From Pseudomonadota bacterium (GTDB lineage: Bacteria > Pseudomonadota > Gammaproteobacteria > Burkholderiales > UBA9220), in contig JAJZVC010000005.1 of NCBI GenBank assembly GCA_021845865.1, positions 1-64,000 of the forward strand: a stretch of 64,000 nucleotides of DNA, written 5' to 3'. The notes beneath the pieces were generated by a model. The model saw nothing but the letters and a program-made list of their open reading frames with translations. It ran no database searches and had not been told where the DNA came from. Within the stretch, counting starts at the first letter, position 1, and every line of letters starts with the position of its first letter. Shown piece by piece: positions 27,948-29,767 of this stretch. Position numbers and translations under genes: made by a program.

Positions 27948-28343
27948 ATGCCATATCTGTTTCGCGCCTTGGCGGTCGCTTTACTTTTTCTTAGCCTTGC
28001 CGCCTGTAAAAAAGACGATACGCCTAAGGAAGATTTGCCGGTATTTGTTCCCCTGGATATGTTCACCGTAAACTTAAGTAGCGTCGACAACTACCTCCAA
28101 GCGACATTCGAGTTGAAGGTGCCCAATCAGCAAACGGCCGAAGAGGTCCGTCAATATCTTCCACTCATCCGCAATGGAGTAATCATGCTTCTGACTTCCA
28201 AAAACGGTGAACAACTTGCTTCAGCCGACGGGAAGCGAAAACTGGGTGAGGAACTGGTCTCGAACCTGAATGAAATATTGGGCAAGGAAGGCCTCAAGGA
28301 TACGGTTCAATCGGTCAACTTCACTTCCTTCCTGGTGCAATAG
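27948..28343 (+). CDS. FliL-like lipoprotein
   Basis: A 131-residue exported protein whose C-terminal region (about 35-131) resembles the FliL periplasmic domain: FVPLDMFTVNLSS, YLQATFELKVPN, LPLIRNGVIMLLTSK, and NFTSFLVQ at the end. Instead of the FliL membrane anchor it has a signal peptide with a lipobox (LSLAACKK), so it should be lipid-anchored. No other flagellar gene is present in the window. It may act on flagellar stators from the envelope, or have left the flagellar role altogether. Confidence 0.82.
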   Translation: MPYLFRALAVALLFLSLAACKKDDTPKEDLPVFVPLDMFTVNLSSVDNYLQATFELKVPNQQTAEEVRQYLPLIRNGVIMLLTSKNGEQLASADGKRKLGEELVSNLNEILGKEGLKDTVQSVNFTSFLVQ

Positions 28344-28373: not shown

Positions 28374-28404
28374 AAAAGCACACTCGGACAGAGTGCGCTT
28401 TTTT
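28374..28404 (+). terminator. Rho-independent terminator of the FliL-like gene
   Basis: AAGCACACTC (28376-28385), loop GGACA and GAGTGCGCTT (28391-28400) form a 10-bp stem with one mismatch, followed by a T run. It lies 32 bp after the stop codon. Confidence 0.85.
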
Positions 28405-28418
28405 ATTAGTAGAAATAC

Positions 28419-28447
28419 TTGCAATGAAAATAACAATATTAGATAAT
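28419..28447 (+). promoter_or_regulatory. Sigma-70 promoter of the candidate small RNA
   Basis: TTGCAA (28419-28424), a 17-bp spacer and GATAAT (28442-28447, 5 of 6 to TATAAT). Transcription would start at about 28454, which is exactly where the first hairpin begins. It lies between the FliL-like gene terminator and the RNA. Confidence 0.6.
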
Positions 28448-28453
28448 ACTAAT

Positions 28454-28558
28454 CAACACGAAGTGCTCATCCCCCTTTTGGGTATTTCGTGTTGTCTCCT
28501 CCATCCTCCTTTGGTGGATATTTAGCGCGGCCTCCCCCCTTTGGCCGCGCTTTTTTTT
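28454..28558 (+). ncRNA. Candidate small RNA with anti-Shine-Dalgarno loops
   Basis: About 105 nt with three successive hairpins. Hairpin 1 has a perfect 9-bp stem (28454-28462 with 28486-28494) and a CCCCCUUUU-rich top. Hairpin 2 pairs 28500-28505 with 28513-28518 and exposes CUCCUUU, the exact complement of the ribosome-binding sequence AAAGGAG. Hairpin 3 is a 9-bp GC stem with a UCCCCCCUUU loop and an eight-U tail, a typical terminator. A promoter ends just before hairpin 1. C-rich loop RNAs of alphaproteobacteria and Neisseria use similar loops to block translation, but I recognise no homologue. Hfq, which such RNAs often need, is encoded in this window. Confidence 0.6.
28524..28558 (+). 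terminator. Terminator hairpin of the candidate small RNA
   Basis: AGCGCGGCC (28524-28532) pairs with GGCCGCGCT (28543-28551) around a pyrimidine loop, and the T run extends to 28558. The strand is clear because an equally good U tract is missing on the other strand. Confidence 0.88.
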
Positions 28559-28565
28559 GCCAAAA

Positions 28566-28590
28566 ATCAAGGGCCGGTTTCCCGGCCCCT
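28566..28590 (-). terminator. Terminator of porG-porA
   Basis: GGGCCGG (28571-28577), loop and CCGGCCC (28582-28588). On the minus strand the stem is followed by TTGATTTTT just after the porA stop at 28595. On the plus strand it is followed by CTTTTC, so it may back up the small RNA terminator. Confidence 0.78.
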
Positions 28591-28594
28591 TTTC

Positions 28595-29767
28595 TTAACG
28601 CTCTTCCGGCGGCAATCTTTCCGGTCGAAGATCGAAAATAGAGAAACGCCCCGGTGCCCCTTTCCGCACAGTCTCTATCAGGCTGCGGTAAGTGGAAAGG
28701 GGGACGTCCCGCCCGCCCAAGCCCAGAGCGAAGTTGAACAAGCGCGGCGGTGAGTCCATCTCAGCCAAGACATTGCGGACTTCCGCGCCTACGATGCCGC
28801 CTGACCCCATCGACAAGGCCCGCTCCAGGACAATAACGTCCGTTAAACCCTCAAAGGCTTGTTTCAGCGCATCGATAGGGAAGGGGCGGAAACTGCGCAA
28901 ACGGATGATTTTCGCCCGGGGAAGGTCTAGGCATTCGTCCATGGCATCACGCAATGTTCCCTGAATCGACCCCAGCGTAACAATCCCGATTTTGGCATCC
29001 TCGGGGCCGTCCACGGCCACCAAGCCGCCCGTGCTGCGACCGGTGATCGCCTGCCACTCGCGATCGGCATCGACGATAACCTGCTGGGCTTTCAACAGGG
29101 CGGTATGATGGGAATGGCGCGCCTCGCTGTAATGGTCCGGCGACACCAGGGTACCGACGCTGATGGGATTGAACGGATCAAGGGTGCGGGAAAACTTGAA
29201 TGGGGGCAGGAATTTGTCGACCTCATCCTGAGAAGGAATGTCGATGGGTTCCAGGGTGTGGGTCAGAATGAATCCGTCCACGCATACCATCACCGGCAAC
29301 TCGGTGGCTTCCGCGATACGGTAGGCCTGGATGGTGGTGTCCACCGCCTCCTGGTTATCAGCGCAGTACAACTGGATCCATCCGGCATCCCGCACCGCCA
29401 TGGAATCCTGCTGGTCATTCCAGATCGAAAGGGGCGAGGAAATGGCACGGTTTGCACAGGTCAGCACCAGCGGCACCCGTACACCGGCGATGTTATACAG
29501 GACCTCGCTCATCAAAAGGATGCCTTGGGAAGCGCTGGCGGTATAGGCTCGCGAACCGGCCGCCGCCGCCCCCAGCACCACCGATGCCGCAGAAAACTCG
29601 CTTTCCACGCTGACGAACTCGCACTTCAATTTACCGTCCGCCACCAGTTTGGAAATGTTTTCCACGATATGGGTCTGGGGGGTGATGGGATAGGCAGCCA
29701 CCACTTGGGGGCGGCACATGGCGACTGCCTGGGCGATAGCCTGGGAGCCTTCAAGCACCTGCAGCAT
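28595..29767 (-). CDS. porA: 2-oxoacid:ferredoxin oxidoreductase, alpha subunit (PorA-like)
   Basis: A 390-residue alpha subunit of a pyruvate/2-oxoacid:ferredoxin oxidoreductase, which converts an oxoacid and CoA to acyl-CoA, CO2 and reduced ferredoxin. The typical YPITPQTHIVE segment, the ESEFSAASVVLGAAAAGSRAYTATS-like block and the late FRPFPIDALKQAFEGLTDVIVLERALSMG region are present. It overlaps porG by 17 bp. The TPP-binding beta and ferredoxin delta subunits are not in the window: a terminator follows directly. The actual substrate cannot be read from this subunit. Confidence 0.88.
   Translation of the reverse strand: MLQVLEGSQAIAQAVAMCRPQVVAAYPITPQTHIVENISKLVADGKLKCEFVSVESEFSAASVVLGAAAAGSRAYTASASQGILLMSEVLYNIAGVRVPLVLTCANRAISSPLSIWNDQQDSMAVRDAGWIQLYCADNQEAVDTTIQAYRIAEATELPVMVCVDGFILTHTLEPIDIPSQDEVDKFLPPFKFSRTLDPFNPISVGTLVSPDHYSEARHSHHTALLKAQQVIVDADREWQAITGRSTGGLVAVDGPEDAKIGIVTLGSIQGTLRDAMDECLDLPRAKIIRLRSFRPFPIDALKQAFEGLTDVIVLERALSMGSGGIVGAEVRNVLAEMDSPPRLFNFALGLGGRDVPLSTYRSLIETVRKGAPGRFSIFDLRPERLPPEER

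Follow-up and report, generated by a model that had tools for sequence, protein, structure and literature searches.

An RNA of the already known family RF02278, in a variant with three hairpins, is encoded in the window (the whole stretch of DNA that was analysed, 64,000 nt), and we consider it likely that this RNA acts in trans to repress translation, with a dyad in its promoter placing it under a persulfide- or redox-sensing repressor of the ArsR family. The new part lies in that promoter, which in sulfur and iron oxidisers bears an apparent operator for a sulfur- or redox-responsive repressor instead of the site for PhaR, the regulator linked to the storage polymer PHB, that most relatives have. 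The RNA element, its family and its conservation, along with the dyad and the recurrent neighbourhood of that dyad, were established by computation; an earlier note, made from the sequence of the window, had described the small RNA, but had named neither the family nor the seed nor the dyad. The features are listed in Table 1.

Table 1. Features of the small-RNA locus and of the promoters compared with it.
Feature	Position	Strand	Remarks
Upstream terminator hairpin	28374-28402	.	3' of the FliL-domain lipoprotein gene 27948-28343
-35 box TTGCAA	28419-28424	+	Most of the 67 named relatives have TTGACA or TTGCNN at this distance
Candidate operator, dyad TATTAG-N6-CTAATC	28437-28454	+	Covers the -10 box and reaches the start site
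-10 box GATAAT	28442-28447	+	17-nt spacer to TTGCAA
Predicted primary sRNA, 104 nt	28455-28558	+	Ends deduced from the promoter (5') and the U tract (3')
Hairpin 1	28455-28493	+	Begins at +1; loop UCCCCCUUU at 28470-28478
RF02278 match and predicted processed 66-nt form (S17S equivalent)	28493-28558	+	Processing inferred (PMC11722255, PMC5688073)
Seed GUCUCCUCCA ("site 1")	28494-28503	+	Single-stranded, 5' of hairpin 2
Hairpin 2	28497-28518	+	Anti-Shine-Dalgarno loop UCCUCCUU at 28504-28511
Hairpin 3, intrinsic terminator	28524-28558	+	Stem 28524-28551, loop UCCCCCCUUU, U tract to 28558
Downstream two-way terminator hairpin	28569-28590	.	Common to the sRNA and the convergent porA-like gene
porA-like gene	28595-29767	minus	Convergent to the sRNA
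PhaR-like box TGCRNYGCA			In L011-L080, some 20-150 nt 5' of the RF02278 core

The sigma-70-type promoter TTGCAA-17-GATAAT places the predicted start close to 28455, where hairpin 1 begins; this arrangement, already proposed in the earlier note, was confirmed, the promoter being kept with the same spacing in 67 named genomes. The promoter scan taken alone was not significant (1 promoter-like site versus 1.6 expected). Folding of the 104-nt RNA gives -45.8 kcal/mol (z = -8.8, a value that none of 200 shuffles equals), which bears out the previous reading of three hairpins with a terminator as the last; the first stem, given there as 9 bp, in fact comprises 15 bp, and the CUCCUUU singled out there occupies 28506-28512. 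The role of hairpin 1 is most likely the protection of the 5' end.

Since the RNA lies on the strand of a lipoprotein gene, 112 nt downstream from it, and since that FliL-domain gene adjoins it in the congener as well as in its own genome, the RNA might be taken for the end or an attenuator of the lipoprotein mRNA. We regard that reading as very improbable: a terminator stands between the gene and the sRNA, the promoter is kept in the 67 genomes, and the family is present in many other genomes, all of which upholds the former description of an independent unit, flanked—as had also been noted—by terminator-like hairpins on both sides.

Regarding the family, positions 28493-28558 match Rfam RF02278 (Betaproteobacteria toxic sRNA) with 50.5 bits over the full model (1-64), the gathering score being 50. 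Narrow as this margin is, we accept the membership because the fit is full-length and the 5' core UGUCUCCUCCA is identical at 28493-28503; the layout of the family also recurs here, with a second hairpin that has a CUCCUCC-type loop and then a terminator hairpin with its U tract, and the RNA of the congener scores 51.8 bits. All other families fell far short of their gathering scores, among them ar14 (29.0 versus 58.8 bits), ErsA (Pseudomon-1; 30.0 versus 50 bits) and anti-hemB (30.5 versus 49.5 bits). The genome holds one RF02278 copy; a supposed second one (L002, 28.8 bits) is devoid of the core and corresponds to the end of a CDS with an ordinary terminator. Within the order, the family was found in 163 of the 300 sampled genomes, and a search for plasmid relatives returned none.

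The members described in the literature include the double-hairpin RNAs NcS03, NcS05, NcS27 and NcS62 of B. cenocepacia, whose designation as toxic comes from what they do in E. coli (PMC5688073, PMC4603805), with 3-5 copies of the family per Burkholderia genome (PMC5688073), and the S17 of B. pertussis, whose long form is trimmed by RNase E to a short form of about 67 nt, and which binds Hfq and represses mRNAs through its conserved 5' end and its loop (PMC11722255). Both S17 and NcS27 act as repressors of multiple mRNAs, in the vicinity of the ribosome binding site (PMC11722255, PMC5688073, PMC10987360); this work, together with the homology to RF02278, backs the earlier proposal of a multi-target anti-Shine-Dalgarno repressor of translation.

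In the congener, Gallionellaceae bacterium UBA2239, the locus is conserved at 92% over 142 nt, the changes in the stems mostly preserve pairing, and the loops UCCCCCUUU and UCCUCCUU are identical. The C-rich loop of the terminator is nearly unique, a C/U run of at least 6 appearing there in only 2 of 129 distinct relatives. Within the seed region, TGTCTCCTCCA is present in 120 of those 129, and CTCC follows within 26 nt, in the next loop, in 114. Hairpin 1 was closed in 53 of 64 distinct sequences versus 278 of 3200 shuffles (9%), with a mean z of -4.1, upon folding each sequence separately; which procedure was used because simple column covariation was set aside for this hairpin, in that the paired cells (582 versus 551) and the double changes (74 versus 51) lay above all 500 shuffles, the pair types did not exceed them, and the 12-pair register failed at bulges beyond about 8 pairs. 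The loop of hairpin 1 contains CCC in only 30 of the 64 sequences: the Thiobacillus type has GCAA-like loops in place of the C-rich one, and the members of one subgroup (L044, L099, L128, L133) keep an invariant UCCCC loop on a variable stem. With such counts for the terminator and for hairpin 1, the former idea of three equivalent C/U loops forming a repeated functional motif is not supported. The working parts of the sRNA are probably the seed and the second, anti-Shine-Dalgarno loop, because these are conserved in relatives, the C-rich loop of hairpin 1 not being universal and that of the terminator not being conserved.

The loop UCCUCCUU resembles the anti-Shine-Dalgarno end of the 16S rRNA, which resemblance would suit an unselective toxic RNA, a mimic of the 16S rRNA 3' end that would titrate ribosomes and lack specific targets. 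The members of RF02278 were, moreover, named for growth inhibition in E. coli (PMC5688073). Such an activity nonetheless seems improbable here, given that S17S was non-toxic in exponential E. coli BL21 and that specific genes, e.g., BP2158, are repressed by it (PMC11722255), and given that the conserved sequence reaches beyond the anti-Shine-Dalgarno core.

The 67 genomes came from a search with a promoter-plus-seed pattern across 84,980 species, and their titles include Thiobacillus, Sulfuricella, Sulfuriferula, Sulfurimicrobium, Parasulfuritortus, Gallionellaceae, Hydrogenophilus and Tepidiphilus. In all of them the -10 box lies within a dyad, TATTAG-N6-CTAATA; the site at the sRNA studied here has one mismatch to that consensus and is the best copy within the window, with 0.02 expected by chance. 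The genome contains six dyads with at most one mismatch versus none for the reversed control pattern, which sites precede the sRNA, a 1-Cys peroxiredoxin, a Tll0287-like protein, an OmpP1/FadL protein and an RND adaptor that stands just 3' of an ArsR gene, the sixth being without an assigned gene. Five genomes of one family (f43) gave 26 dyads versus none for the control. In three AT-richer genomes (G002, G031 and G017), with one mismatch allowed, the control matched as often as the dyad, so that we trust there only exact or context-supported sites; with no mismatch, the counts were 2, 2 and 1 versus 0. One dyad, AATTAGCGAAGGCTAATA (L160, G000:C74:17643, and G002:C48:31283), is exactly conserved in both congeners and has no obvious gene beside it. 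The genes directly 3' of the dyads encode rhodanese, AhpC-type peroxiredoxin, OsmC, a YgaP-like transmembrane protein, Sulf_transp, globin and RND/TolC. Rhodanese, peroxiredoxin, YgaP-like proteins, sulfur transport and the like are functions of the sulfane-sulfur and redox-stress regulons of the BigR group.

The -10 box falls inside the dyad, and the responses described for members of RF02278 are to starvation, to biofilm growth or to the Bvg state (PMC11722255, PMC10987360); the RNA could accordingly be regarded as an ordinary sRNA of the family under growth or nutrient control, as in Burkholderia, with the dyad as a conserved variant of the core promoter or as the site of an unrelated regulator. 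We deem this unlikely, though less so than ribosome titration, because the half-sites of the dyad, with other central bases, also occur at promoters that are not of the sRNA and repeatedly beside one and the same ArsR gene, and because the outer bases (TA...A) are conserved even though the search pattern did not force them.

Its gene neighbourhood suggests that the dyad most likely serves as operator for a repressor of the ArsR family bearing the dithiol of BigR, SqrR and YgaV. In 20 genomes a dyad lies 23-184 bp past the end of the gene for an orthologue of one and the same ArsR, no dyad being found beside the ArsR gene in three others (G045, G260 and G290). This ArsR protein (P0001) aligns best, and across the whole domain, with BigR (3pqj) and YgaV (3cuo), and both of their sensor cysteines are kept in 16 of 16 dyad-linked orthologues; its score of 76.5 bits is below the 155-bit cut-off of the NCBIfam BigR equivalog NF040642. 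The protein apparently belongs to a BigR-like branch that is uncharacterised and has a regulon of several genes. In L158 (G000:C61:71213) and 19 other genomes, the dyad stands between the dithiol ArsR gene and an RND/TolC efflux operon. A literature search found no operator consensus of BigR, SqrR or YgaV equal to the dyad, and the HlyU operator in PMC10509353 differs from it. As an operator control, a simple scan of the E. coli ygaV promoter (L312, 224-255) found two tandem TTTAG-N6-CTTAA-like repeats, not above chance.

Among 68 RF02278 promoters, the dyad was present in 11 and TGCRNYGCA in 46, none having both and 11 having neither, versus 0.07 and 2.2, respectively, expected from dinucleotide shuffles. 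In Ralstonia eutropha, the PhaR palindrome YTKNTGCRNYGCANMAR has TGCRNYGCA at its core (PMC12849132), and the PhbF site of H. seropedicae is similar to this core (PMC3206438), which suggests a PHB-linked control of the RF02278 sRNA in most Betaproteobacteria. The ArsR orthologue was found in all 11 genomes with the dyad (81-96% identity) versus 20 of the 46 of the PhaR type (Fisher p = 5e-4, ancestry not corrected); eroded dyads occur in some of the ArsR-bearing genomes that lack both elements (L054, L056).

Candidate targets were taken from the genes of the genome and of its congener that have a strong Shine-Dalgarno site, GGAGGAGA, ahead of ATG. The best candidate is soxX (TIGR04485), whose leader AATGGAGGAGACCATAATG is identical in the two species though the signal peptides differ, and which is predicted to pair with the sRNA, with an 11-nt match and at -27.4 kcal/mol versus a window mean of -12.2 (sd 4.9), this match having been chosen post hoc. 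As a conserved target, soxX was rejected, the 11-nt match being confined to the two congeners and other families having ordinary Shine-Dalgarno sites. The AAAGGAG that had been reported before a rubrerythrin gene in the window is indeed there (start 2975, minus strand), and CCAAAGGAGGA at that place matches the region of the second loop perfectly over 11 nt; AAAGGAG is not enriched within the window (5 versus 8.3 expected). This rubrerythrin gene is a second one, besides another that lies 3' of a CBS-domain gene. The CBS-domain gene (L261/L279, L260/L278) has, in two species, both a Shine-Dalgarno site of the GGAGGAGA type and a weak dyad, so that the pair which it forms with rubrerythrin might possibly build an incoherent feed-forward loop with the sRNA. 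The leaders of soxX, of the CBS-domain gene and of rubrerythrin are proposed as leads only.

The mechanism that we infer, from the transcript ends and the processing to the ArsR binding, the inducing signal and the targets, would run as follows. The 104-nt RNA would start with its protective hairpin at +1 and, by analogy with S17L/S17S and NcS27, be cut near 28493 into the 66-nt form, whose single-stranded seed and CCUCC loop of hairpin 2 would pair—as homologues suggest—with purine-rich Shine-Dalgarno regions and so block the translation of several mRNAs. A dithiol repressor of the ArsR family would sit on the dyad over the promoter until persulfides or oxidants freed it, whereupon the sRNA would be induced alongside the detoxification genes for rhodanese, peroxiredoxin, YgaP-like protein, sulfur transport and RND/TolC efflux, and would lower other translation, possibly that of soxX.

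We lean towards regarding the RNA as the sRNA of a reactive-sulfur regulon, in which a BigR/SqrR-like repressor would directly govern an anti-Shine-Dalgarno sRNA, with the PHB sensor PhaR in its place in most other Betaproteobacteria, i.e., a swap of regulators on one conserved RNA; if true, sulfane-sulfur stress would be tied to a translational shut-down of chosen genes, possibly those of sulfur oxidation. For the widespread RF02278 RNAs, the two mutually exclusive promoter elements provide testable candidate regulators in most of the sampled members: PhaR in most lineages, and a persulfide- or redox-sensing ArsR in the sulfur and iron oxidisers. Because a literature search found no report of an sRNA under a persulfide sensor, confirmation would add an RNA arm to the persulfide response; the dyad, for its part, outlines a putative regulon for an ArsR branch that had not been placed before.

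With the persulfide-sensing repressors BigR, SqrR and YgaV, the system shares the two cysteines and the rhodanese and YgaP-like genes next to the dyad; the ArsR protein here differs in its recognition helix and in its linkage to an RND/TolC operon. The RNA, like NcS03, NcS05, NcS27, NcS62 and bdhR1, has the UGUCUCCUCCA core, a CU-rich second loop, a terminator hairpin and a stand-alone intergenic gene, and the longer, processed primary form of NcS27 is also predicted here; in contrast to the family in Burkholderia, it is present in a single copy and begins at +1 with a 15-bp hairpin. Compared with its relatives, the loop of hairpin 2 is 3 nt shorter than in most, and the promoter carries the dyad where most of them have the PhaR-like box. 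S17 likewise has a sigma-70-type promoter for its long form, and its short form contains both of the conserved sites (1 and 2), S17S being of 67 nt versus the 66 nt predicted here, whereas S17L, at 190 nt and with Bvg-linked control, has a 5' part and a promoter unrelated to those of the present RNA (PMC11722255).
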